From: Thalassospira sp. MCCC 1A01148
GTDB taxonomy: Bacteria > Pseudomonadota > Alphaproteobacteria > Rhodospirillales > Thalassospiraceae
Direction of reading: 5' to 3'
Length of the DNA stretch: 64,000 nucleotides
NCBI RefSeq assembly: GCF_001613795.1
Contig: NZ_LPVZ01000020.1
Coordinates: forward strand, 992,001 to 1,056,000
The position numbers were made by a program, and so were the translations under genes. A model generated the notes under the pieces. The model worked only from the letters and a program-made list of their open reading frames with translations, searched no databases and was not told the DNA's origin. Positions 1 to 36,318 of the stretch are shown piece by piece. Position 1 is the stretch's first letter. The number at the start of each line of letters is the position of its first letter.

Positions 1-70
1 TGTCGCGCACGGTATTACAGCCGCCCCGGCATCACACGCACTGGTGCGCTATCTGGCGCGAAAATCCTAG
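1..70 (+). CDS. C-terminal tail of a probable cation/proton antiporter (partial)
   Basis: Only the last 23 codons lie in the window, in the frame starting at base 2 and ending at TAG 68-70. The peptide begins VAHGITAAPASHALVRYL. The HGITA-x-P signature is typical of the end of the membrane domain of NhaP/CPA1-type Na+/H+ or K+/H+ exchangers. The assignment rests on that short motif alone. The gene converges on the LysE-type gene that follows. Confidence 0.5.
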   Translation, partial: VAHGITAAPASHALVRYLARKS

Positions 71-127
71 TCGGGCAAGCCCCTTTGGGAGCGGCGGGCA
101 GACATAAAAAGTCCCTGCCCGGTCAGC

Positions 128-787
128 TTATTGCTGGGTGATGGCAAGGCGGATGCCAAGCGCGATGAACATGGTGCCAAGGGCACGATGCAACCACGCG
201 CCAAGCCTGCGGCTGCCCTTGATCCGCCCGGCAGCGGATGCCACAGCCATGACCAGCATGCCTTCAACGACAAGTGCGATCAACAGCACCACCAGCCCCA
301 GAACAAGAAACTGGGTCGCCCCATTGCCCATGGCCGGATCGACAAATTGCGGCAGAAAGGCCATGAAGAAAATCGCGACCTTTGGATTGAGCACATCAAT
401 CATTACCCCCTGACGCCAGGCGGCAAATGCTGTCATCGGTTTTGTTGAAACGGGTGCTGCCGGTTCATCGGAGCCGGCATCGTTGGCGGATTTGGCAAAA
501 CTGCTGCGCAGCGCCCCGAGACCAAGCCAGACCAGATAAGCCACCCCGATCCATTTGACGATGGCAAAGGCAAGGGCGGAAGTCGCAAGGATTGCGGACA
601 AACCAAGGGTCGCCGCCAGCACATGCACAAACGCCCCGGACACCACACCAAAGGATGAAAACAAGCCGATCTTGCGCCCGTAAACGGCCGTCTGCCCGAC
701 AATATAGGCCATATCCGGCCCGGGCGAGATATTGAGCAACAGTGCGGCGATCAGAAACGGCGTATAGGCAACGAACAGCTCGATCAT
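128..787 (-). CDS. LysE/RhtB family exporter
   Basis: This 219-residue hydrophobic protein has about six predicted membrane segments. It carries the N-terminal LysE signature (LLLNISPGPDMAYIVGQ) and a mid-protein NPK motif (LNPKVAIFFMAFLPQFVDP). The family exports amino acids or related small molecules across the inner membrane by proton exchange; the substrate cannot be read from sequence. The ATG overlaps the stop of the upstream DinB gene by four bases (ATGA), so the two are translationally coupled. A second LysE-family gene lies at 14635-15342. Confidence 0.9.
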   Translation of the reverse strand: MIELFVAYTPFLIAALLLNISPGPDMAYIVGQTAVYGRKIGLFSSFGVVSGAFVHVLAATLGLSAILATSALAFAIVKWIGVAYLVWLGLGALRSSFAKSANDAGSDEPAAPVSTKPMTAFAAWRQGVMIDVLNPKVAIFFMAFLPQFVDPAMGNGATQFLVLGLVVLLIALVVEGMLVMAVASAAGRIKGSRRLGAWLHRALGTMFIALGIRLAITQQ

Positions 788-1284
788 GCCAGCAGTTCCC
801 GACCGAAATAGATCAGGTCAATCTCAAGCGGACCTGAGCCGGCCTCAATCAGCATATTGGACAGTTGCCCGCGATGATGGGTCTGATGGTTGAACATATG
901 CCCCAAAATCAGATCGCGCGGCATGGTATAGGCCCCGGCGGTAACGGACTGATAGCTTAGATCGGATGTGACTTCGGCGTCGGTCAGGTTTCTGGTGAAT
1001 TCAAGGATCGCCTGATCTTCGGCTTCGCGCGCGGTACGCAGTTCATCGAAGTCTTCGTAAAGCACAGTATCAAGCGCCATGGTCACCGGACTACCCAGCA
1101 AGCGCCCCATCCAAAGCCGGTCGGCAACGACAAGATGGTTGAGTGTGCGCATGATTGACGGGAAGAAGGCGCGGCGGGGCGCGTCCAGTTCGGCCTTTGA
1201 CAATTTTGCGCAGGCATCATAGGCATGGGTATTGGCCCAGATATTATATTGCGCCATGCGTTCGAAATAGGCCGCACCGTTCAT
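784..1284 (-). CDS. DinB family protein
   Basis: The 166-residue protein has the DinB/YfiT four-helix-bundle pattern: an N-terminal N-x-W-A-N segment, a first His in LNHLVVADRLW (near residue 50), and a late H-x3-H pair in HMFNHQTHHRGQ (near residues 130-137). In this family these His residues usually bind a divalent metal. Members are often thiol-dependent transferases or damage-inducible proteins, but the substrate here is unknown. It is the middle gene of a probable minus-strand unit: EamA (1330-2283), this gene, then LysE (128-787). Confidence 0.88.
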   Translation of the reverse strand: MNGAAYFERMAQYNIWANTHAYDACAKLSKAELDAPRRAFFPSIMRTLNHLVVADRLWMGRLLGSPVTMALDTVLYEDFDELRTAREAEDQAILEFTRNLTDAEVTSDLSYQSVTAGAYTMPRDLILGHMFNHQTHHRGQLSNMLIEAGSGPLEIDLIYFGRELLA

Positions 1285-1329
1285 CTTCTTACTCCGTCTT
1301 TAGATCTGCCTTTGGGGTCGCGGTCGCGA

Positions 1330-2283
1330 TCAGGACTTCGCCGCCGGATTTGGCGTGCAGGTGGTCGAAACTGGCACCGCCGCCGGTGCGACCTGTTCAA
1401 GCACCTGACTTGCCGGTTTGGGCACACGTTTGGTCAGAATAACCACGTTGCCCACCAAAGTCAGTGCAACACCCCAGATAATATTGCCTGTCCAGTGGAA
1501 ATCCTCAAACCAGGTCGACAGCAACAGCGCGACAATCGGAAACATCACCGAACTATATGCCGCACGATCCGGCCCGATCTTGCCCAGAAGCGTCAGATAG
1601 AAGCCAAAGCCCAGAACCGACCCGAACAATGCGAGATAGACCAGTGCTGCCATGAAGCTGGCACTCGGATCAAAGGAAACCGGAATCCCGGCAAGGGCGA
1701 TATAGCCAAACAGCAAGACCGTGCCATAAAGCATGCCAAAGGCATTGGCCTGCATGACCGGCACGCCGCGCGCATGGTTGCGGGCTGATGCCATATTGCC
1801 AAGCGATGCGATGTAACTGCCCGCAAGGGATACCAGAAGCCCGATGCTGCCACCTGTGGTGAGATCAAATGCGGCCAGATCGTTGGCAAACACCATGGCA
1901 ATGCCGGTAAGGCCAATCCCGGCCCCGATCAAAGTGCGGGTTTCGGGGCGGCGGCGGAAAAAGATCACGCCATTAATCATGTTCATGATGACGATGGTCG
2001 AAAATACCACCGCCAGAAGCCCAGATGTCAGATGCACACTGGCGAGATAGATCAGCACATAGTTCAGCGAAAACAGACAAACACCCAGAGCCGCCATGAA
2101 GAAATGATCGCGAAGCGTAAAGCGCATCGGCAAACGGCGGAAGCCACACCAGGCCATCATGATCAGCGTTGCCAGCGCAAACCGATAGGCAACCGCAACT
2201 TCGGGCGCGACCGAAAGCTGATACTGAATGGCGATCCAGGTCGATCCCCAGATCAAGACAACCGCTGCATAAAGACCCAACAT
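1330..2283 (-). CDS. EamA/DMT superfamily transporter
   Basis: A 317-residue protein with ten predicted membrane helices arranged as two EamA repeats. The first begins LYAAVVLIWGSTWIAIQY and the second follows near residue 150. EamA proteins export amino acids or metabolites; the substrate is unknown. The reading frame is open to 2373, but the extra 30 residues look non-native, and the ATG at 2283 places the protein directly at the first EamA helix. The Pro/Ala-rich C-terminal tail is cytoplasmic-looking. It precedes DinB by 45 bases on the same strand. Confidence 0.88.
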   Translation of the reverse strand: MLGLYAAVVLIWGSTWIAIQYQLSVAPEVAVAYRFALATLIMMAWCGFRRLPMRFTLRDHFFMAALGVCLFSLNYVLIYLASVHLTSGLLAVVFSTIVIMNMINGVIFFRRRPETRTLIGAGIGLTGIAMVFANDLAAFDLTTGGSIGLLVSLAGSYIASLGNMASARNHARGVPVMQANAFGMLYGTVLLFGYIALAGIPVSFDPSASFMAALVYLALFGSVLGFGFYLTLLGKIGPDRAAYSSVMFPIVALLLSTWFEDFHWTGNIIWGVALTLVGNVVILTKRVPKPASQVLEQVAPAAVPVSTTCTPNPAAKS

Positions 2284-2428
2284 GGCCCAAGGACTCCAAA
2301 ATATTTGAAGCCACAATTTAAGGCAGTTCAGAATCGACACCAAACCAGCTTTTTTGATCCGGGCATTAGCCAAACTAATCCAAAACCCTGAAATCTAATG
2401 CATTACCGATCAGGTTTTTTGGGTGGAT

Positions 2429-4441
2429 CTATTTCGACGGGCTTTTGCCATTGCCTTTCGGTTTGGTGGGTTCAGCACCTTCTTTCGGTGTTTCACCAAC
2501 CGTGTCGTTGGCCACATCGTCGATCATATCGTCAGATGCGTCAGACATGTCGGGTGCCTCAGGCAGATCAGTCTCGTCTGTGGCAGCTTCGGCAGTCTTG
2601 GCCGTCGATGATGTCTGATCGCGAAGTGCAGCGTTCTTTTCGGCCCGCCTGCGTTTCTGCCAGTCTTTCCAGATTGCCAGCAACTCGCTGCGTGACTGGA
2701 AGATCGGGATGCGACGTTTGGGTTTGGTTTTTTGTTGTTCGACTGCAAGGCCGACTTCGATCACGCCATGTTCGTCATCTGTGCGACGCACGATCAGCTC
2801 CACCGTGCCATAAGACAGGCGATCGCCGAGTTCGAGGTCGCCGGCAAGTTCACGTTCCATGATCTCGGCCACGGTTAGCTCGGCGTCATTGTCGGCAAGG
2901 GCGAAGCCGTAAAGGCGCGCGATATCGGCAATGCGGGTATCGGCCGGGAAGCTGAAATCACCAAACAGTTCGACGTCATTGGCCCCCTCTGCCGGACCGG
3001 CGAAGAGCTGATCAAGCAGTTCGACATGGCGCGGCGGGGTGATGATATAGACCTGATCACCGGCCTGAATGGGCCCGGCAGAATGCGGACGCAGCGACGC
3101 GCCATCGCGCAGGATCAGGCTGGGCCGTGCCCAACGCGGAATGCGCTGGCCGGTGGCAACCGCACTGGCGTCGTGCACGCGATAGACAACAATTTCCTGA
3201 TTGGCATTACCGGGCAATTCCAGATCAATACGATCCACCGGACCATGGCGCGGCGGCACGATAATGCCCAACCAGTTGGCGACCTTGCGGATCGTCCAGC
3301 CCTGCAACAGAAGCGAGGTGATGACGACGATAAAGGCGGTGTTAAACAGTAACTGTCCTTCGGGCACACCTTCGACCATCGGCACAATGGCAAGCAGGAT
3401 CGACACCGCCCCGCGCAAGCCAACCCATGAAATAAAGGCCGTGTCATTGCGCGAGAAGTTAAAGAACATCAGGCAAAGCCAGACCGCAACCGGGCGGGCG
3501 ATAAACACCAGAACAAGTGCCAGGATCACGCCCGGAACAATCACTTCACCAAATTCAGATGGCGTTGCCAGAAGACCCAGCGTGACAAACATCGCGATCT
3601 GGGCCAGCCACGTCGTGACATGCTGAAAACGCCGGACACCGACGCTCATTTGCATTTTGCTGTTCCCGGCATAAAGGCCCGCAACATAGACCGCCAAAAA
3701 GCCACTGCCGCCCAGAATACTGGTCGCGCCAAACAAACTGAGGGCAAGCGCCATGGTGATGATCGGCACCAGACCGGGTTCAAGTTTGACCCGGTTGATC
3801 ATCCAGACCAGAGCATATCCACCGGCCAGACCAAAGATGCCGCCAAGACCAATCTGCAGAATGAAGCGCTGCAGGAGCTCAAGGGCGATGTTTTCGCCGC
3901 CGCCCAGAATGATCAGCTCGACCAGCGATATGGTCAGAAACACCGCCATCGGGTCGTTCGAACCCGATTCAACTTCCAGCGTGCTGCGCGTACGATCACG
4001 CAGATTGATGCCGCCAACGCGTAACAGGAAAAACACCGCCGCCGCATCGGTCGAGCTGACAATCGCACCAAACAAAAGCGCGACCAGCCATGGCACATCG
4101 AGCACCAGCCATGTGACCCCGCCAATGACACCCGTGGTAATCATCACGCCGATGGTCGCCAGAACCAGCGAGGGCCCGGCGGCAATTTTCAACGTTCGAA
4201 GCTGGGTTTCAAAGCCACTGTCAAACAGGATGAGGGCGAGTGCGATAGAGCCGATGAAATAGGCCAGCGGCGCATTGTCGAACATGATGCCGCCAATGCC
4301 ATCTTCGCCCGCGCCCAGCCCGACAAACAGAAACACCAGCAGCAAGGGTGCGCCGACCCGGAAGCTGACCAGACTGGTGAAAACGGCAACCACCACCAGA
4401 ATCGATGCAATCAGGATCACCAGATTCATCGATTCAATCAT
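2429..4441 (-). CDS. cvrA: K+/H+ antiporter, CvrA (NhaP2) type
   Basis: A 670-residue protein. Residues 1-400 form a CPA1 sodium/proton exchanger domain of about 12 helices. Two acidic stretches expected in the ion pathway are visible (LFDSGFETQL; GSNDPMAVFL). Next comes an RCK_C/TrkA-C-like segment (about 410-490; GDQVYIITPPRHVELL), then a CorC/HlyC-type domain (about 490-575), then an acidic, Thr/Glu-rich tail. This domain order matches E. coli CvrA, which trades cytoplasmic K+ for protons in volume and pH control; ligand control through RCK_C is inferred. A possible ribosome site (AGGAG) lies about 12 bases before the ATG. The tail beyond residue 600 is longer and more charged than usual. 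Confidence 0.9.
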   Translation of the reverse strand: MIESMNLVILIASILVVVAVFTSLVSFRVGAPLLLVFLFVGLGAGEDGIGGIMFDNAPLAYFIGSIALALILFDSGFETQLRTLKIAAGPSLVLATIGVMITTGVIGGVTWLVLDVPWLVALLFGAIVSSTDAAAVFFLLRVGGINLRDRTRSTLEVESGSNDPMAVFLTISLVELIILGGGENIALELLQRFILQIGLGGIFGLAGGYALVWMINRVKLEPGLVPIITMALALSLFGATSILGGSGFLAVYVAGLYAGNSKMQMSVGVRRFQHVTTWLAQIAMFVTLGLLATPSEFGEVIVPGVILALVLVFIARPVAVWLCLMFFNFSRNDTAFISWVGLRGAVSILLAIVPMVEGVPEGQLLFNTAFIVVITSLLLQGWTIRKVANWLGIIVPPRHGPVDRIDLELPGNANQEIVVYRVHDASAVATGQRIPRWARPSLILRDGASLRPHSAGPIQAGDQVYIITPPRHVELLDQLFAGPAEGANDVELFGDFSFPADTRIADIARLYGFALADNDAELTVAEIMERELAGDLELGDRLSYGTVELIVRRTDDEHGVIEVGLAVEQQKTKPKRRIPIFQSRSELLAIWKDWQKRRRAEKNAALRDQTSSTAKTAEAATDETDLPEAPDMSDASDDMIDDVANDTVGETPKEGAEPTKPKGNGKSPSK

Positions 4442-4586
4442 TTCGGGGGCTCCTGTGTCGGGACATCACAATGGGTGTGGCGGATTACTCGCGCATTACT
4501 ATCACATCAGATACTTAGGAAATGATGACCGATAATGCCATCGCACCAGAGATATCGATAAAAATTATCCGGAAACTGCAAATCAA

Positions 4587-5048
4587 TCAGTCGTTCTCGG
4601 ATTCAGCCGGAACAAACAGTGTTTCTTTCGATGTCGACAAGGCAATTTCCGGAAGAACTTCGACCACGCCGGGCATTTCCTTGATCGTGTCGGAAATAAA
4701 TGATTCCAGATGCGCGGTATCACGCAGACGCAGTTTGATCAGAAAGTCAAAGCGCCCTGTCATGTGATGACATTCAAGCACCTCGTCGGCCTTGATCAGG
4801 GATTTTACCAGCTTCTTGTTGCCCTTGGCCGGATCAGTGCGCAGCCAGACCAGTGCGGTCAGGGCCCGGCCAATGGCCTGCGGATCAACTGAAATACGAT
4901 AGGCTTGAATGACCCCCTGTTCGCGCATCTTGCGTACGCGATCATTCACTGCAGAAACCGATAGCCCGACCTTGGTCCCCAAAACCGAATAGGACAGCGA
5001 CGCGTCTTCCTGCAGGATGTCGATCAATTTGCGATCAATTGCATCCAT
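4587..5048 (-). CDS. Lrp/AsnC family transcriptional regulator
   Basis: The 153-residue protein has an N-terminal helix-turn-helix (residues 1-60; LSYSVLGTKVGLSVSAVNDR) followed by a RAM ligand-binding domain (residues 65-145; VLECHHMTGRFDFLIKLRL). Lrp/AsnC proteins sense amino acids and control nearby transport or catabolic genes. A strong ribosome site (GGGGGAAG) precedes the ATG. It diverges from three consecutive EamA exporters starting at 5211, so their control is the simplest inference. The shared intergenic region holds a 13-base palindrome at 5106. Confidence 0.92.
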   Translation of the reverse strand: MDAIDRKLIDILQEDASLSYSVLGTKVGLSVSAVNDRVRKMREQGVIQAYRISVDPQAIGRALTALVWLRTDPAKGNKKLVKSLIKADEVLECHHMTGRFDFLIKLRLRDTAHLESFISDTIKEMPGVVEVLPEIALSTSKETLFVPAESEND

Positions 5049-5105
5049 TAATCTTCCCCCTGAATGGATTTGATGGCGTTGATCTTACACGAAAAATCGG
5101 CAGGC

Positions 5106-5118
5106 GCGAACTGTTCGC
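5106..5118. promoter_or_regulatory. GC-rich palindrome between the Lrp gene and the EamA cluster
   Basis: GCGAACTGTTCGC is a perfect inverted repeat (6-base arms around a single T). It sits in the 162-base divergent intergenic region. It does not resemble the AT-rich Lrp consensus, so binding by the neighbouring Lrp protein is only a possibility. Confidence 0.3.
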
Positions 5119-5210
5119 CACAACTTAAGGGTTATTCCTGCGGGCGGCTGGACCATTTTTATGCGGTTGGACTGGATTTTTTCCAGATAGCTGCGTAATG
5201 CTAGAAGATA

Positions 5211-6197
5211 ATGAACGCGCCCCAACCCAATTCTGACAATGCAGCCCTGATGGGCGCCCTTCTGATGATCAGTGCTGCAATGTGTTTTGCGGTAATGGCC
5301 GTCTTTATCCGCTATGTCACAGCCGACCTTCACCCGTTCGAGGCATCGTTTTTCCGCAACCTGTTTGGATTGCTGCCGATGGTGCCATGGATGGTGCGCC
5401 ATGGGCGGAGCGGATTGAAGACCGAGCGGTTCAAGCTGCATTTTCTGCGCGGTGTGCTTGGCTTTGGGGCGATGTCGTGCATTTTTACTGCCCTGTCCTT
5501 GTCCCCGGCTGCCCAAGTCATCGCGATCAATTTTACCCTGCCGATCCTGACCACGGTTCTTGCCGCCATTGTGGTCCGCGAAACCGTTCGCGCGCGCCGC
5601 TGGAGCGCGATTGCCATTGGCTTTGTCGGGGCAATGATTGTGATCCGTCCGTTTGGCCAAAGCTTTGAGACCGGCGCGATCCTGGCCCTTGGTGCGACCG
5701 TGTTCATGGCCTGTGCGATGACCACGGTCAAAATGCTGTCGCGCACCGAAAGTGCCAATGCCATCGTGACGTGGATGGGGCTGATCATGACACCACTGTC
5801 GCTGATCCCGGCCCTGATTTACTGGCAGGGGCCAAGCGTTTGGCAGTTATTTATCCTGCTGGTGATTGCGGTAACCGGTACCGCCGGTCAGCAATTGCTG
5901 GTGCGGGCATACCGCACTGCGGACCAGTCCTATGTCATGATCTTTGATTTCCTGCGCCTGCCCTTTGTTGCGATCCTTGCCTATATCATGTTTGGCGAAG
6001 TGGTTGATTTCTGGACGTGGGCCGGGGCGGCCCTGATTATCGGATCAGCGCTTTATATCGCGCGGCGCGAGGCGGTTCTGGCGAAAAAGGCCAGAACACA
6101 GACTCGCCTGCCGACCACCGCCCCCGCCGACCCACAAGCCATCCCCGCAACCAAGATCGACCGTGCCGACCGACCGAAAGACGATCCTGATGCGTAG
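5211..6197 (+). CDS. EamA/DMT superfamily transporter, first of three tandem copies
   Basis: A 328-residue protein with ten predicted helices in two EamA repeats. It has the family start (AAMCFAVMAVFIRYVT, then LHPFEASFFRNLFGLL) and a mid-protein RTESANAIVTWM stretch. The C-terminus (after residue 285) is a Pro/Thr/Asp-rich cytoplasmic tail. The sequence clearly resembles the next two genes, pointing to tandem duplication. Its stop (TAG 6195-6197) overlaps the start of the next gene (ATG 6190), so the cluster is translationally coupled. The ribosome site is weak (AGAAG). Confidence 0.9.
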   Translation: MNAPQPNSDNAALMGALLMISAAMCFAVMAVFIRYVTADLHPFEASFFRNLFGLLPMVPWMVRHGRSGLKTERFKLHFLRGVLGFGAMSCIFTALSLSPAAQVIAINFTLPILTTVLAAIVVRETVRARRWSAIAIGFVGAMIVIRPFGQSFETGAILALGATVFMACAMTTVKMLSRTESANAIVTWMGLIMTPLSLIPALIYWQGPSVWQLFILLVIAVTGTAGQQLLVRAYRTADQSYVMIFDFLRLPFVAILAYIMFGEVVDFWTWAGAALIIGSALYIARREAVLAKKARTQTRLPTTAPADPQAIPATKIDRADRPKDDPDA

Positions 6198-7140
6198 CTG
6201 GTTCAACGCGTTGCCACCGTATCTGCAAGCCACGGCATTTGGCCTGATGGCATCAATCAGTGCTGCGGTATTTTCGGTATTTGTCCGGCTTGCGACCGAG
6301 CATATCCACCCGCTTCAGGCCGTGTTTTTTCGCAATTTCTTCGGGCTGTTGTTCATCGCGCCGCTTGCACTTCGCGCGGGTCTGACGCCGCTTAAAACCA
6401 AGCGATTCCCAATGTTTTGTTTACGCGCGGTTCTGTCGATGGGGGCGATGAGTTTCTGGTTTTCGGCCATTGCCTATATGCCACTGGCCGAGGCAACCGC
6501 GCTTAACTTTACCGTGCCACTGTTTGGCACCATTCTGGCCGCGATCTTTTTGGGTGAGACAATCCGAAAATACCGGATTGCCGCGCTTCTGGTCGGGTTC
6601 GGCGGGGTCTTGGTCATTATCCGGCCGGGTGATGAGGCTGTGCAATTGGCAAGCCTGTTGCCGATTGCGGCTGCGGTTTGCATGGCGAGTGCGGGTCTGA
6701 CGATCAAGTCGCTGTCACGGACTGAAAACCCGACCACCATCATTCTGTACATGATGGTGCTGACCACGCCGATGACCCTGATCCCGGCGCTTTTTGTCTG
6801 GCAGACGCCAAGCCTTGAGGCGATCTTGCTGATGGTGGCGGGCGCGTTCATGGCCAACCTGACGCAGATCGGCAATACCAATGCGTTTCGGGTCTATGAT
6901 TACGGCTTTGTCGTCGGGTTCAATTACCTGCGCCTGCCCTTTGTGTCGATCATCGCGCTGGTGATCTTTGGCGAAGTACCGGAAATCTGGCTTCTGCCCG
7001 GTGCGATTTTGATTGTCGGGTCCGCACTTTATATCGCCCGGCGCGAGGCGAAACTGAACCGTGAAGCCAACCGCCTCAAACGCGGCCTGTCGGCCACGGC
7101 AAGCGATCTTGATCTGCCGCCTTCCAACAGGAAGTCGTGA
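6190..7140 (+). CDS. EamA/DMT superfamily transporter, second tandem copy
   Basis: A 316-residue, ten-helix protein with two EamA repeats. Shared landmarks with its neighbours are EHIHPLQAVFFRNFFGLL, YMPLAEATALNFTVPLFGT and FNYLRLPFVSIIALVIFGE. The ATG at 6190 is chosen because it gives MRSWFNALPPYLQ, which parallels the MRTWFNTQ start of the third copy; the frame is open nine codons further upstream. It overlaps the end of the first copy by eight bases. The C-terminal basic tail (REAKLNREANRLKRG) is also shared with the third copy. Substrate unknown. Confidence 0.9.
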   Translation: MRSWFNALPPYLQATAFGLMASISAAVFSVFVRLATEHIHPLQAVFFRNFFGLLFIAPLALRAGLTPLKTKRFPMFCLRAVLSMGAMSFWFSAIAYMPLAEATALNFTVPLFGTILAAIFLGETIRKYRIAALLVGFGGVLVIIRPGDEAVQLASLLPIAAAVCMASAGLTIKSLSRTENPTTIILYMMVLTTPMTLIPALFVWQTPSLEAILLMVAGAFMANLTQIGNTNAFRVYDYGFVVGFNYLRLPFVSIIALVIFGEVPEIWLLPGAILIVGSALYIARREAKLNREANRLKRGLSATASDLDLPPSNRKS

Positions 7141-7144
7141 CAGC

Positions 7145-8041
7145 ATGCGGACATGGTTCAACACCCAATCCGATGTGATGCGGGCAAGCTTTTTCGCGCT
7201 GTTTGCAGCCATTCTGGCGGCGTGTTTTACCCTGACGATCCGCTATGCCACCGAGGAGTTGCATCCCTATCAGGCGGTGTTTTTACGCTTTGCCTTTGGC
7301 TTGATCCTGATTTTGCCGATGGTTATGAAGCGCGGGATTGGCAGCCTTGCCACCAAGCGCCTGCCGCTGTTTGGAGTGCGTGGCATCCTGTCGGCGGCAA
7401 AGATGTGTTTATGGTTCATGGCAGTTTTGTATTTGCCGCTGGCAGAGGCCACGACGCTGAATTTTACAGTGCCCTTGTTTGGCACCGTTCTGGCCGCACT
7501 GATCCTGCGCGAACAGGTGCGCATTCACCGCTGGCTTGCGATTGTCATCGGATTTATTGGTGTGGCGCTGATCATTCAGCCCGGGACAGATACCATGCGA
7601 GCGGCCAGCATTTTGCCGATTGCAGCGGCAATCTGCATGGCCAGTGCCGGGTTGATCACAAAGCGGTTGGTGGCAACCGAGTCCACCGCATCGCTCTTGT
7701 TTTATCTGATGATCATCACCACACCGGTTTCCCTGATCCCGGCATTGTTCGTCTGGCAGACGCCAAGCTGGTCTGCACTTGGCCTGATGGCGGTTGCCGC
7801 CCTGATGATGAATGTGATGCAGATTTGCAATGTCAGAGCCCTGCAACTGGCCGATTACAGTTTCTTTGTCGGGTTTTCCTATTTGCGTTTGCCGATCATT
7901 GCGGTGCTGGCGCTGATCCTGTTTGGCGAAGTGCCCGATATCTGGATATTGCCCGGCGGGGCGATGATTATCGGGGCTGCGATCTATGTCGCACTTCGGG
8001 AAGGAAAATTGAACAGCGAAGCCAGACGGATCGAACGGTAG
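7145..8041 (+). CDS. EamA/DMT superfamily transporter, third tandem copy
   Basis: A 298-residue, ten-helix protein with two EamA repeats. It is closest in sequence to the second copy: YLPLAEATTLNFTVPLFGT, FSYLRLPIIAVLALILFGE and a REGKLNSEARRIER end. The ATG lies four bases after the stop of copy two; the upstream extension (open to 7061) overlaps copy two and lacks family resemblance. The three genes form one operon that diverges from the Lrp-type regulator. Sequence composition changes sharply after its stop. Confidence 0.9.
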   Translation: MRTWFNTQSDVMRASFFALFAAILAACFTLTIRYATEELHPYQAVFLRFAFGLILILPMVMKRGIGSLATKRLPLFGVRGILSAAKMCLWFMAVLYLPLAEATTLNFTVPLFGTVLAALILREQVRIHRWLAIVIGFIGVALIIQPGTDTMRAASILPIAAAICMASAGLITKRLVATESTASLLFYLMIITTPVSLIPALFVWQTPSWSALGLMAVAALMMNVMQICNVRALQLADYSFFVGFSYLRLPIIAVLALILFGEVPDIWILPGGAMIIGAAIYVALREGKLNSEARRIER

Positions 8042-8106
8042 CACGCTTCATGGACAAGCAATTGCGAACCACGTACGCCAACTTCTAAAGAGACCAGCAA
8101 TTGGGA

Positions 8107-8121
8107 GTTTCAACCTGAAAC
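8107..8121. repeat. Short inverted repeat before the AT-rich gene
   Basis: GTTTCA-ACC-TGAAAC is a perfect six-base-arm dyad in the 190-base gap between the EamA operon and the AT-rich nuclease-like gene. It could be an operator or hairpin. It has no terminator-type T-run. Confidence 0.3.
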
Positions 8122-8231
8122 CCGTAAGAACGAACCTTCTACCAATCCAACACCTTGCCAAACCATGTGAACCTGCAACAAAAAAAGCTACTATTGCACC
8201 AATTATCCAACAACAGTTGCGGACCTAACTA

Positions 8232-9620
8232 ATGATAAAAGATACAGCGTTCATCGGGATAGGATCTGAGGAAACGTCGATTGATCCAATTCAGTACATT
8301 AGCAATTACAACATCTCTGAGCTCGATTATCTATTTTGGAACTCGGCAACTTTCAGCGATGAATTCAGCAGATATGTAAAGAATGTTTACGGCAGCTCTA
8401 GCGAGAATACTAGACAGCAGTCCTGCATTACTTACTCAGAAAAGACAGAAAAACTTATAGATTTTTCAGAAAATGGTGGAAACATTGTAATATTTACTGG
8501 AGGAGAAACAAAAGTAAACATTGGGTTTGGAAGACGGGATGACCCATCATTACTTGAAAAGTTTCGCCTATCAAGAACACATGGTAAAAGATATAAATTT
8601 ATTGAAAATGAAAAAATTAACAGAACGCTAAATGAAATATATTCAGAAATAAATTACTCATTTATAATAAAAAACAATAAAACAAAAACTTTGATAACAG
8701 TTCCCAGAACTGAAGAAGTAATATCTTCCTTTTATCTAACTGATGGAGGCGGAATTGTTATAGCGATGCCGCTACCTACTTCATCACCCCTCCCAGTAAG
8801 TAAAATTAAGACTCTGATATCAGATATTAAGGCCGAATTTTCAGCGGAAAATTCGAAGAGCGATCTTCCAAGACTTGCATCAAACTATCATCTACCGCTG
8901 GAACACCAAAAAACAGCTGAAAACAAAAAAATATCTGAAGAGATACAAGCTATGCAGGCTCAAATAGATGAAAATAGGCTGATAATCTCGAAGGAGGCTG
9001 AATGGAAGCACCTATTTTCGTCACATGATGAAGCGCTTGAGAAAGCAGCAGCCAAAGCCTTTGAGGAACTTGGGTTTTTAGTGGGCTTTGGACCCAAAAC
9101 TCACTGCGACATTGTCTGCGTAAAAGAAAAAACAATACTTGCAGTTGAAGTAAAAGGCCTGAAGAGAAGTGCAAAACCTGCAAACGTCAATCAATGTAAA
9201 AGATGGATTTCAGACATTGTAGGTGCTCTTGATTATGCACCAGACGACAAAGATAGCGTTCTAGAAGAATACGTTGATTGCCTTAAGAAACTTGGCGTCA
9301 AAAACCCGTCTTCTTCAGAAGAATGGGACGTCAAAGGTGTCGTTGTGATCAACACGTTTAGGAACAATTCACTCGAAGATCGAAATGATCCGAGCGAGCC
9401 TTCATTTAACAAGCAAGTTCGTGAACGGATGAAACGTGAGAACATCTGTGGAATGACCGGGATACAACTACTTAATCTTGTTATACGCATCACAGAGAAC
9501 CCGTCAGAGAAAGAAAGTGTTTGCGAAACCATCATCAAAACTGCCGGACAAATTGACCTTAAAGAAGATTGGAAAACCTACATCAGCAAAGTTGAGATAT
9601 GCGAAACAGACCCAAAATGA
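8232..9620 (+). CDS. Unknown protein with PD-(D/E)XK-like nuclease domain, probably acquired
   Basis: A 462-residue protein that I do not recognise as a named family. Residues 1-200 look alpha/beta. DYLFWNSA and LIDFSENGGNIVIFTGGE (about 74-92) recall ThuA/class I glutamine-amidotransferase-like folds. Residues 225-260 are predicted coiled coil. Residues 265-330 match the PD-(D/E)XK nuclease pattern: helix ALEKAAAKAFEELGF, Asp293, then Glu306-Val-Lys308 in AVEVKG, and Gln321 in VNQCKRW. A later KGVVVINTFRN strand and L-rich helix fit the end of such domains. Base composition and codon use (many AAA, ATA, AAT) are far more AT-rich than all neighbours, which suggests horizontal gain. No clear ribosome site is seen before the ATG. 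Nuclease activity and a defence role are inference. Confidence 0.75.
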   Translation: MIKDTAFIGIGSEETSIDPIQYISNYNISELDYLFWNSATFSDEFSRYVKNVYGSSSENTRQQSCITYSEKTEKLIDFSENGGNIVIFTGGETKVNIGFGRRDDPSLLEKFRLSRTHGKRYKFIENEKINRTLNEIYSEINYSFIIKNNKTKTLITVPRTEEVISSFYLTDGGGIVIAMPLPTSSPLPVSKIKTLISDIKAEFSAENSKSDLPRLASNYHLPLEHQKTAENKKISEEIQAMQAQIDENRLIISKEAEWKHLFSSHDEALEKAAAKAFEELGFLVGFGPKTHCDIVCVKEKTILAVEVKGLKRSAKPANVNQCKRWISDIVGALDYAPDDKDSVLEEYVDCLKKLGVKNPSSSEEWDVKGVVVINTFRNNSLEDRNDPSEPSFNKQVRERMKRENICGMTGIQLLNLVIRITENPSEKESVCETIIKTAGQIDLKEDWKTYISKVEICETDPK

Positions 9621-9675
9621 AGGCTCCAACCCCTGAACACTTAAAATCAAACAGATAGCCGTTGCCGACAAAAGA

Positions 9676-9702
9676 TATAATTTGGTATACAAATACCAAA
9701 TT
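9676..9702 (+). promoter_or_regulatory. -10 box overlapped by a GntR-type palindrome
   Basis: A consensus TATAAT lies at 9676-9681. A perfect inverted repeat with ten-base arms, AATTTGGTAT-ACAA-ATACCAAATT, occupies 9679-9702 and overlaps it. The TGGTAT...ATACCA core resembles GntR/FCD-family operators. Overlap with the -10 box suggests repression of the SDR gene starting at 9737. No good -35 is visible and no GntR gene lies in the window. Confidence 0.55.
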
Positions 9703-9736: not shown

Positions 9737-10498
9737 ATGCAAATCAAGGGTTCGATTGCCATTGTTACCGGGGCTGCGTCTGGTCTTGGGGCGGCAACGG
9801 CAGAGACACTGGCGAATGCCGGGGCACGGATTGCCGCCTTTGATCTGAATACAGACGGGGCCAAGGCAACGGCCGAGAAACTGGGGGGCGTTGGCTATGG
9901 CGTGGATGTTTCGAATGCCGAAAGTGTCGAGCACGCAGTTTCCAAGGTGGTCAAGGATATCGGTATTCCGTCGATCCTTGTGAATTGTGCAGGCATCGTG
10001 CATGGCGAGCGGATCGTCGGGCGCGAAGGTCCGGCTGATCTTGAAGCCTTTTCCAAGGTGATCACGGTCAACCTGATCGGCACATTCAACATGATGCGGG
10101 TTGCCGCCACCGCGATGAGCCAGAACACCCCATCAGACTCCGGCGAGCGCGGGGTGATTATCAACACCGCCTCCATCGCGGCCTTTGAAGGGCAGATCGG
10201 GCAAGCAGCCTATGCCGCGTCCAAGGGCGGGGTTGCGTCGCTTACCCTGCCGGCCGCGCGTGAATTGGCGCGACACGGGGTTCGGGTGGCGTCAATCGCA
10301 CCGGGTCTGTTTGGCACACCGATGTTGATGGGCCTGCCGGACGAGGTTCAGGAAAGCCTGGCTGCCAATACGCCGTTCCCCAAACGCCTTGGTGATCCGT
10401 ATGAATATGGTCGTCTGGCGATGCATATCTGTGAAAATGAAATGATCAATGGCGAGACCATTCGCATTGATGGCGCGGTCCGGCTGGAACCGAAATAG
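9737..10498 (+). CDS. Short-chain dehydrogenase/reductase, HSD10-like
   Basis: A 253-residue classical SDR. It has the TGAASGLG glycine motif (11-18), Asp36 after the second strand (usual for NAD(H) preference), NCAG (92 region), and catalytic Ser146, Tyr159 and Lys163. The insertion before the catalytic Ser and the ending GETIRIDGAVRLEPK resemble 3-hydroxyacyl-CoA dehydrogenase type 2 (HSD10) proteins, which act in fatty-acid or branched-chain acyl-CoA oxidation; that substrate is inferred. The ATG at 9737 has a GGAGG site nine bases upstream; the frame is open further to 9662, but that stretch is the operator region. A terminator follows at 10536. Confidence 0.88.
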   Translation: MQIKGSIAIVTGAASGLGAATAETLANAGARIAAFDLNTDGAKATAEKLGGVGYGVDVSNAESVEHAVSKVVKDIGIPSILVNCAGIVHGERIVGREGPADLEAFSKVITVNLIGTFNMMRVAATAMSQNTPSDSGERGVIINTASIAAFEGQIGQAAYAASKGGVASLTLPAARELARHGVRVASIAPGLFGTPMLMGLPDEVQESLAANTPFPKRLGDPYEYGRLAMHICENEMINGETIRIDGAVRLEPK

Positions 10499-10535
10499 TC
10501 CCACACCATTTCGCTTCTTTATCACCGCAGCCAAA

Positions 10536-10572
10536 GCGCCCTGTCGTCCCCCCAGCGGCAGGGCGCAATTTT
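10536..10572 (+). terminator. Rho-independent terminator after the SDR gene
   Basis: GCGCCCTG (10536-10543) pairs with CAGGGCGC (10559-10566). The stem extends three more pairs (one G-T) around a nine-base loop and is followed by AATTTT. Confidence 0.65.
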
Positions 10573-10583
10573 CAGGGCAAGCT

Positions 10584-10874
10584 TTATTCGCCTGCCGCCG
10601 TTTGGCAGAAGGTTGCCAGATCAATGTCCTTTTGCGTCACGCCACCGGCATCGTGGGTGGTGAGCGTCATTTCGACCTTGTTATAGACATTGAACCATTC
10701 GGGATGGTGATCCATCTTGTCGGCCTTGAGTGCCACCCGCGCCATGAAGCCGAAGGCGGCATTGAAATCGCCAAACTTGTAGACGCGCTTGATTGAAAGC
10801 CCGTCATCGGCAAGCGTCCAGCCCGGAAGATCGGCAAGTGCGGTTTCGATGGTGGATTTTTCAAGTTTGCTCAT
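10584..10874 (-). CDS. phhB: 4a-hydroxytetrahydrobiopterin dehydratase
   Basis: A 96-residue single-domain PCD/DCoH protein. It carries the active-site stretch [15 protein letters not shown] with the paired His residues and later Thr/His-Asp (TTHDAGG). It dehydrates carbinolamine pterin, recycling the cofactor of phenylalanine hydroxylase; in bacteria it may also serve other pterin reactions. The ATG at 10874 is preceded by GGAGG eight bases upstream; the longer open frame to 10997 runs into the uracil-DNA glycosylase gene and lacks family similarity. No phhA is in the window. It is third in a probable GST / UDG / PCD transcript. Confidence 0.92.
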
Positions 10875-10941
10875 ATGGCGTGCCTCCATTGGTTGAAGTC
10901 TGCGCGCATTGGAACATAAATCCTGCCATAGCCCAAATCGT

Positions 10942-11577
10942 CTAGCCCAACAGGCTGTGCACCCGGCTTTGCAGGATTGGCAGAAGGTCGCGTTCAAACC
11001 ACGGGTTCTTTTTCATCCAGGCGGTGTTGCGCCAGCTTGGATGGGGCATGGGCAGGATGTCTTCGCCAAGGAAGTCGTCAAACTGATGGACGGTTTCGGT
11101 CATGGTCTTGGCGCGGCGTTTACCAAGATAGCGTTCTTGCGCATATTGCCCGATCAGAAGCGTCAGACCGATATCGGGCAGATGTTGGCGGAGCGCATCA
11201 TGCCAGGTCGGGGCGCATTCCGGGCGGGGTGGCAGATCCCCACCGCGCTCAAAGCGGCCGGGATAGCAAAAGCCCATCGGCATGATGGCGAGCTTTGCCG
11301 GATCGTAAAAATCATCAACAGATAGCCCCAGCCAGTCGCGCAACCGATCGCCCGATGCATCATTCCACGGCAAGCCGGTTTCATGTACGCGGGTACCGGG
11401 CGCCTGCCCGATCACCAGAATGCGTGCCGATTTCGCCATGCGCACCACCGGGCGCGGACCAAGTGGCAAATCCCCCGCGCAGATACGGCATGCACGGACG
11501 TCTGCCAGCACCCGATCAAGGGCATCATCCCCGCCCATCGGATCAATTTCAGGCAATTGTCCAGTCAGCCCCGGCAT
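10942..11577 (-). CDS. Uracil-DNA glycosylase family protein
   Basis: A 211-residue protein of the UDG superfamily (COG1573-like). [18 protein letters not shown] (about 51-68) is the motif-1 region with the G-Q-A-P-G pocket, and [18 protein letters not shown] (about 177-194) is the motif-2 HPS loop. Two Cys in [11 protein letters not shown] (about 30-33) do not make the four-Cys cluster of family 4/5 enzymes. It probably excises uracil or a related base, but this subfamily's substrate is not settled. The gene starts three bases after the stop of the GST gene, so they are co-transcribed. Confidence 0.85.
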
Positions 11578-35289: not shown

Positions 35290-36318
35290 AGAACAATCCC
35301 TTTAAGGCATTGAATTATTTAATTAATTTAGCATAACCGAACATGAGAAACGCAAAAGAGCGCCCGATATTCAACAGCATAAGAAGGAAGTGTATCGACG
35401 GAGTCCGGCCCCTGCAACTGCATTTGCAGTCAAAATTGAATCGCTTCCGATTCATTCACAGGCCAATTTGCGACTCCCAGGAAACAAACGGGGTTCACTG
35501 AAAAATACCAAGCGTTTGATATAAAACATTTTTTGATGAATTACGTGTATTTCCTTGACGTCATACACCCGTTTTGACTGTTGCGGAGTTATCCACAGGT
35601 CGCAGATTACAGACACTCTTTGCGAATTCTGTTAAGTGATTGCAATAAAACATTATTTTCAAGTCGTTGTTGGGAAGAGGGTCCAATTCGTCGGCGGAGG
35701 CAAAACCGTCAAAAACTGAAATTGTCGTCGATCCCCTGTCAGAGCGTTCCCGTAAAACAACATATGCAGTTAACGTAAAGCCAGTTCGAAACATAACCGA
35801 AAGTAAATGAGGTGTTAATTTTACACCAAACCCCATGTTTTGGTCCCCAAATGGGGATTTTCAGGCAAGATTCACGGCGCACGCACCACCCGGAAGACAA
35901 CGCTAAATATATGATTTAATTGTATTATTCCTGTTTCAGGTGAGTGACACTGGTATCCTTACGGTCTGACCGGTAAATCGTTTCGAGTTGTTGACATTTT
36001 CTATCTACATATGCAGTTTTTTATTGGCCGCAAGCGGCATAATTGCGCTGATTTACGCACTTGCGAAATTTTATAACTTGCTGGAAACCGCATAACCCCT
36101 TGGAAACAGCCCATTTTACGCACAGCATTCAAATCGAGCGCAAGAAACGCTCGGCACGATGTGTGCCCGACCGTCTTGTGAGCAAACCTGTGGGTTATTA
36201 ACTGGAGACGTTTTGATTACAGGGGTGACGTGCCGGTTTTATGCCAACGTAACCGGATGGTGGCTTTCAGGAACCGATAACTGCCTGAATTGTCCGGCAG
36301 CCGCAGATCTTGGCCTTG
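35290..36318. other. AT-rich non-coding kilobase with a DnaA box
   Basis: No convincing gene lies here. The stretch holds an exact DnaA box TTATCCACA (35589-35597), two copies of ACATATGCAGTT (35760-35771 and 36007-36018), a palindrome ACTGCATTTGCAGT (35417-35430), a hairpin at 35831-35856, a CGAGCG/CGCTCG dyad (36135-36153) and AT-rich runs such as TGAATTATTTAATTAATTTA (35310 region). It could be a replication or partition site or an RNA locus; neither is shown. Confidence 0.45.
35589..35597 (+). promoter_or_regulatory. Exact DnaA box
   Basis: TTATCCACA matches the strong DnaA-binding consensus base for base, inside the AT-rich non-coding kilobase. A degenerate second site may be TGTGGGTTA at 36190. 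Confidence 0.5.

Follow-up and report, generated by a model that had tools for sequence, protein, structure and literature searches.

The 64-kb stretch of Thalassospira sp. MCCC 1A01148 DNA analysed here (the window) carries an intact open reading frame of 462 amino acids whose composition sets it apart from its surroundings, raising the question of what this gene encodes and how it came to stand there. Its GC content is 0.382, against 0.555 in the remaining window, and among the window's 48 ORFs that do not overlap and reach 150 amino acids, its GC3 of 0.337 (z = −5.2; mean 0.63) is the lowest, with the runner-up at z = −1.7. Of the eight ORFs listed, it also diverges most in codon usage (0.79). 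These values make the gene a compositional outlier well beyond chance, in agreement with an earlier sequence-only reading, which had described base and codon composition unlike both flanks. That reading had also seen neither a transposase nor a phage gene next to it, and we recognised none, nor an integrase, when reading the neighbouring ORFs; likewise, no adjoining methyltransferase (neighbours read by eye) or defence gene was recognised. The upstream neighbours are presumably three EamA-type transporters, and downstream lie what we take, by reading, to be an SDR gene followed by pterin-dehydratase-like, uracil-DNA-glycosylase-like and aminopeptidase ORFs. Neither a promoter-like site on the gene's strand nor a terminator-like site was found near it. 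The features of the locus are collected in Table 1.

Table 1 Features of the locus, in window coordinates.
Feature	Position	Strand	Basis
462-aa gene: GATase-like domain, coiled coil and PD-(D/E)XK domain	8232..9620	+	Open frame, composition outlier, alignments with relatives
Probably non-catalytic N-terminal alpha/beta domain of class-I GATase-like (GIFT/ThuA-like) type, residues ~1-212	8232..8867	+	Mapped from L081 residues 1-246
Coiled-coil helix, about residues 222-262	8895..9017	+	L081 model helix 263-303, mapped by alignment
PD-(D/E)XK nuclease-like domain at the C-terminus, residues ~254-441	8991..9554	+	L081 model residues 295-457 compared with FokI; mapped by alignments
Codon of D293, putative metal-binding Asp	9108..9110	+	Among 15 rows, Asp in 12, Glu in 2, Ser in 1
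Codons of E306-V-K308 (E-x-K)	9147..9155	+	E306 in all 15 rows; at 308, Lys in 9 rows and Glu in 6
Codon of Q321, in the helix that follows the motif	9192..9194	+	Q in 14 of 15 rows
Inserted segment missing from empty sites of other Thalassospira	8002..9654		Five aligned empty sites
Segment of near-identity with T. profundimaris WP0211 between clearly more diverged flanks	7701..9700		100-base identity bins

Two side observations concern other parts of the window. The EamA-type transporters (5211–8041) are three tandem paralogues, of which differing copies in the window and in T. profundimaris match at ~68% DNA identity. Further away, positions 35290–36318 are AT-rich (GC ~0.46–0.48 in 1-kb bins) and hold, wholly inside, ORFs of at most 91 amino acids; it may be the decayed remnant of an insert, or have a regulatory role.

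The sequence-only reading had proposed a PD-(D/E)XK-like nuclease domain with Asp293, Glu306-x-Lys308 and Gln321 in the characteristic spacing, and the residues stand exactly there: the window protein carries the D…(D/E)-x-K signature of this class (D293, E306 and K308) in the form D-x12-E-x-K. Conservation was followed in an alignment (A6) of 15 rows that includes the window protein (P0001; P and L numbers denote the proteins and loci of relatives) and excludes the 99%-identical protein P0004, P0009, which is cut by a contig end, and the prophage rows L078 and L082. Two residues, E306 and G309, never vary, and the remaining motif positions differ as given in Table 1; all four motif residues are kept in the distant relatives P0002, P0003 and L053. 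The six rows with Glu in place of K308 are those of a prophage and Enterobacter plasmid clade reading E-x-E-G-K, to which the relative modelled below belongs; an E-x-E arrangement occurs in BamHI. Below-threshold profile matches of the window protein were NERD (0.055) and Hjc (0.15), and other family members gave AHJR-like (0.008) and Cas4 and RTasPDDEXK (both ~0.009). Each is weak alone; together, these matches of different members all name PD-(D/E)XK-type families.

We then examined the fold on an AlphaFold model of the full-length prophage relative L081, built from an alignment (A7) in which the window protein is joined by the relatives from the seven viral contigs (pLDDT 79.1, pTM 0.51; pLDDT below 50 at residues 329–334 and 354–356, near the active site). 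A single-sequence model of the window protein itself was unusable (pLDDT 35). L081 is 17–21% identical to the window protein, and profile–profile comparison joins the window subfamily (A3) to the prophage subfamily (A5) at a probability of 98.9% (E = 3.7e-17, 419 columns); as the match spans 419 columns, the link is full length and extends beyond the nuclease part. With VIA-align, residues 295–457 of the model superposed on the cleavage half of FokI (Z 12.3; 146 residues aligned at rmsd 3.0), followed by Nt.BspD6I (Z 11.1), AF1548 (10.6), HindIII (9.0) and Can2 (8.6), and the alpha-beta-beta-beta-alpha-beta core of PD-(D/E)XK enzymes is present (helices 307–321 and 360–373; strands 324–326, 337–340, 345–351 and 384–389). 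The structure search on which the earlier reading had staked its nuclease domain returned nuclease folds for this model. Residues 1–246 matched the class-I GATase 7d54_A (MsGATase; Z 10.8, 175 aligned, rmsd 4.2), then 1o1y (TM1158; 9.9), the IFT52 NTD (9.8), DnfC (9.7), a beta-galactosidase domain (9.6) and STM3548 (9.1). Models without a clear match usually reach a best Z of 7 to 8, and both halves of L081 therefore exceed this level. The ThuA/GATase resemblance suggested for the N-terminus, and with it the three-part architecture of GATase-like domain, coiled coil and nuclease-like domain, is borne out on the model of this relative. As for the AlphaFold and Foldseek check suggested with that reading, the fold matches on the L081 model were obtained through VIA-align; by itself, Foldseek returned no PDB match at E ≤ 0.001. 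Against viral models, four Foldseek matches passed, one of them named a restriction endonuclease.

The N-terminal half of the L081 model thus shares the fold of class-I GATase/GIFT/ThuA-like proteins (MsGATase, TM1158, IFT52 NTD, STM3548). The family differs from class-I GATases, however, in being fused to a nuclease and in the nucleophile position: at the site that topology makes equivalent (after strand 86–91 of the L081 model; the check covers the Cys of Cys-His-Glu only), Cys occurs in 4 of the 15 rows, and the window protein has Gly. Since the nucleophile Cys is not conserved, the domain is unlikely to carry out glutaminase chemistry and is probably a sensor.

Profile libraries held no fitting model for the protein. 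The Pfam scan (E up to 10) gave a best match of 0.0062, below the cut-off, to DUF6819 (residues 188–287), which we set aside as a coiled-coil-type match; the NCBIfam scan, run on the window protein only, had no match, and the best PADLOC value was 0.017. Extending the scans to 9 and then 15 family members for Pfam, and to 9 for PADLOC, again yielded no fitting model, and no Pfam GATase or ThuA match appeared among the 15 at E up to 1. Defence finders built on these libraries would therefore miss the family. PDB sequence searches with the single protein and with profiles A5, A4 and A3 returned no trustworthy match; the best for A4 (0.0051, an inorganic diphosphatase) was not trusted, and those for A3 included a Holliday resolvase at 1.1. 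A PHROGs terminase profile matched window residues 24–167 weakly (best 0.005) and was dropped because the structural match differs; the L081 relative had no PHROGs match.

Relatives were found by successive searches. An order-level search of 317 genomes returned two (P0002 and P0003; 7.7e-24 and 1.4e-18), with ORFs of 468 and 487 amino acids that align with the window protein over the full length. A profile search of 385 class genomes added three (four matches with the own genome), and an enlarged profile run on 314 order genomes gave six matches, namely the own genome, T. profundimaris, the two known relatives and two new ones, one of which ends at its contig end. Chained searches reached a Fusobacterium record of 2.1 Mb, a Halobaculum plasmid, seven plasmid records of Enterobacter, of which six are predicted to be conjugative, and seven viral contigs; profile A5 recovered the same seven contigs and none further. 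Other queries of these collections were empty: the window protein alone against plasmids, phages and viral contigs; the first profile (A1) and P0010, P0007 and P0005 against viral contigs, where P0008 matched a single 22-residue piece (L072); P0002, P0003, P0005 and P0006 against plasmids; a distant-mode DNA search of E. coli genomes with the Enterobacter gene; and a phage search with the protein it encodes. In an even phylum sample of 398 genomes, the own genome was the sole match, both with the first sequence and with the 15-row profile. The family is real but sparse. Literature searches, with most subscription papers and bioRxiv outside their coverage, returned no description of this GATase-like/nuclease fusion; as far as the libraries and searches reach, the family and its GATase-like partner are undescribed.

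How did the gene arrive at its present site? It is carried by 2 of the 29 Thalassospira genomes searched, whereas the neighbouring SDR gene was found in all 29. In five aligned empty sites, homology with the window ends near 8001 (8023 in one) and restarts at 9655 (9671 in one), and we therefore delimit an insert of ~1.65 kb holding a single gene; in L031 and L050 the upstream neighbour had no clear position, and blast alone was used to compare the remaining sites. The insert holds no recombinase, and no repeats were seen at its ends by eye in the five aligned sites. The second carrier is T. profundimaris WP0211. The window and this genome align over ~17.5 kb at 86.4% identity overall, but across 7701–9700 each 100-base bin is 0.94–1.00 identical, compared with 0.69–0.98 in flanking bins, and the gene copies are 99% identical. 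The gene being this much closer than the surrounding alignment, it moved recently between species, and the block implies an exchange that probably ran through flanking homology and took flanking DNA along. The two copies differ in ten codons (4 synonymous, 6 not), too few for any inference on selection.

The gap between the EamA and SDR genes is a small exchange site. In four other Thalassospira (L028, L029, L030 and L037) it holds a different gene pair, presumably a Crp/Fnr-like regulator and a periplasmic protein gene (named by reading), with native composition in the two that were measured (L029 and L037). A palindromic sequence at window 9679–9702, upstream of the SDR gene, has few changes at most in the five aligned empty sites, and the insert ends ~25 bases before it; from its sequence, it looks like a repressor operator.

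The surroundings of the relatives bear on function. In 15 of 17 loci, the gene has a higher AT content than the remainder of the sequence fetched (exceptions L068 and L082; the count includes one of the seven Enterobacter records and leaves out T. profundimaris). Together with the 2-of-29 distribution in the genus, this is not the pattern of uniformly spread housekeeping genes with native composition, which the sequence-only reading had named as the opposing case. Three loci have a clear defence context by PADLOC. In L064 (Fusobacterium), the relative adjoins a KAP NTPase of the candidate-defence class PDC-S20 (8.8e-53); in L082, its neighbours include Septu PtuA (4.4e-77) and PtuB (5.2e-47) and a PifA-like KAP pair; in L081, the neighbour is HEC-08/DUF3644 (2.4e-134). 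The L081 relative has a portal gene (phrog_68) on one side and a 'nicking at origin of replication' gene (phrog_91) on the other, which we take, by reading, to be gpQ-like and gpA-like. The gpQ–gpA interval of P2-like phages is described as a hotspot for anti-phage systems (PMC9122126), and on that description we read the L081 locus as this hotspot. Weaker context came from L077, which adjoins a DitB-like protein (1e-11), and L083, which has a type II/orphan methyltransferase nearby. Integrases lie near L074 and L078, and the L066 relative lies ~150 bp after a tRNA-His. The tested neighbours of L078, L079, L080, L074, L066 and L070 had no PADLOC match, and those of L075 a marginal one only; in all, 10 of the 22 hand-picked neighbour proteins were without a match and 2 had marginal matches only. 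Neighbours of L065, L067, L068, L069 and L071 were read by eye. The survey of defence islands suggested by the earlier reading therefore divides: L064, L081 and L082 speak for it, with hand-picked neighbours, and the seven Alphaproteobacterial loci outside the genus speak against it, their surroundings reading by eye as ordinary genes (L071 is a 3-kb contig). Overall, the context is suggestive.

Within these loci, some further details were seen. The L082 stretch 1–5247, on a viral contig with a phage tail gene nearby, carries a methyltransferase, PtuA/PtuB and the PifA-like KAP pair in a row beside the relative, a compact defence island. In L064, positions 4832–7280 hold two genes next to the relative, the KAP NTPase and one resembling zinc proteases (Lit-like, 0.0019, marginal); the three may form a defence cluster. 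The L081 prophage also carries, at 10439–11452, an SspD/DndC-like gene (SspD 4.1e-21) directly upstream of the replication-nicking gene.

Some distant relatives reside on prophages and plasmids or beside virus-defence genes, and the protein is therefore probably a one-gene immune factor. We consider it likely, on balance, that the gene encodes a mobile, single-gene, sensor-gated nuclease acting as a paired chain against phages or other elements. In this proposal, the C-terminal PD-(D/E)XK domain would cut nucleic acid, most likely DNA, with D293, E306 and K308 holding the metal for cleavage; the coiled coil would pair two chains so that two cleavage domains act together; and the GATase-like domain, its catalytic cysteine lost, would bind a trigger, either a protein of the phage or a small molecule that arises during infection, whereupon the nuclease would be released. 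Cleavage, dimerisation, sensor role, trigger and immune function are thus what we infer for this protein. More tentatively, as a possibility rather than an expectation, the relatives could form a new one-gene immune-receptor family of bacteria and a haloarchaeal plasmid, in which a pseudo-glutamine-amidotransferase senses infection and switches on a FokI-like nuclease through the coiled coil.

Three other accounts were weighed against the sensor-gated nuclease. The protein might restrict directly, its N-terminal domain or coiled coil recognising invading DNA by modification, ends or structure and the nuclease cutting without a separate trigger, in the manner of a modification-dependent restriction enzyme. 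The cleavage domains of FokI, Nt.BspD6I and HindIII do have the same C-terminal fold as the L081 model, alongside the D-x12-E-x-K motif in the window protein, and such restriction and nicking endonucleases are, besides AF1548 of unknown function, the best C-terminal matches. The lack of a recognised methyltransferase beside the window gene (by reading) would fit a type IV-like enzyme, and it is a point of difference from type IIS/II enzymes; methyltransferase genes do lie near the relatives L083 and L082. The N-terminal half, however, matches GATases and no known DNA-reading domain, and so differs from the DNA-reading part of FokI; we judge direct restriction unlikely. A mobile or repair nuclease (resolvase-like, for example), selfish or serving housekeeping DNA metabolism, that aids its own spread rather than defending the host would agree with the weak Hjc (Holliday resolvase) resemblance, the movement of the gene as a unit with flanking homology, and the integrases near the L078 and L074 relatives. 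We find this quite improbable: the insert carries no recombinase and no end repeats visible by eye, and Septu, KAP or DUF3644 genes adjoin relatives in three loci.

The third account is a second-messenger effector, in which a Rossmann-like N-terminus binds a nucleotide signal, with the nuclease killing the cell or slowing the phage down. Can2 and Card1, CARF-containing effectors of type III CRISPR systems, combine a Rossmann-like N-terminus and a PD-(D/E)XK C-terminus in one chain, a two-part build that the family resembles; Foldseek lists VC1899, Card1 and Cdn1, and Can2 is among the VIA-align matches of the L081 nuclease half (Z 8.6). These matches, however, span approximately the nuclease half or superpose poorly (rmsd 37 for VC1899 and 38 for Card1), and GATases lead the list for L081 residues 1–246. 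Furthermore, the Cas10 models TIGR02578 and TIGR02577 matched none of the nine carrier genomes (seven at least 90% complete, two at 73% and 78%), with controls positive in 7 and 4 of 14, which weakens a Can2-like reading; we regard it as very unlikely. A match to PF22335 (Cas10 palm domain) in two of the nine, including the own genome, was read as GGDEF proteins and set aside because an E. coli control also matches and the specific models do not.

Shedu (SduA, DUF4263) is a single-gene system with a nuclease-fold C-terminus and a variable N-terminus. The window gene is likewise a single gene with a nuclease-fold C-terminus. Pfam gave no DUF4263/SduA match, with the window protein scanned to E 10 and 15 members to E 1, and PADLOC gave no Shedu match among 9 members. 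As proposed, the gene would resemble known kinds, having a restriction-type nuclease domain, a Shedu-like single-gene defence organisation and Can2-like ligand gating, and the tests made assign it to no named defence family.

The gene is compact (~460 amino acids), and its relatives travel on prophages and conjugative plasmids. If the proposed function is true, the locus would add an uncatalogued family to the single-gene nuclease defences, and would present a case in which the fold of a metabolic enzyme serves as immune sensor alongside a nuclease of restriction type.
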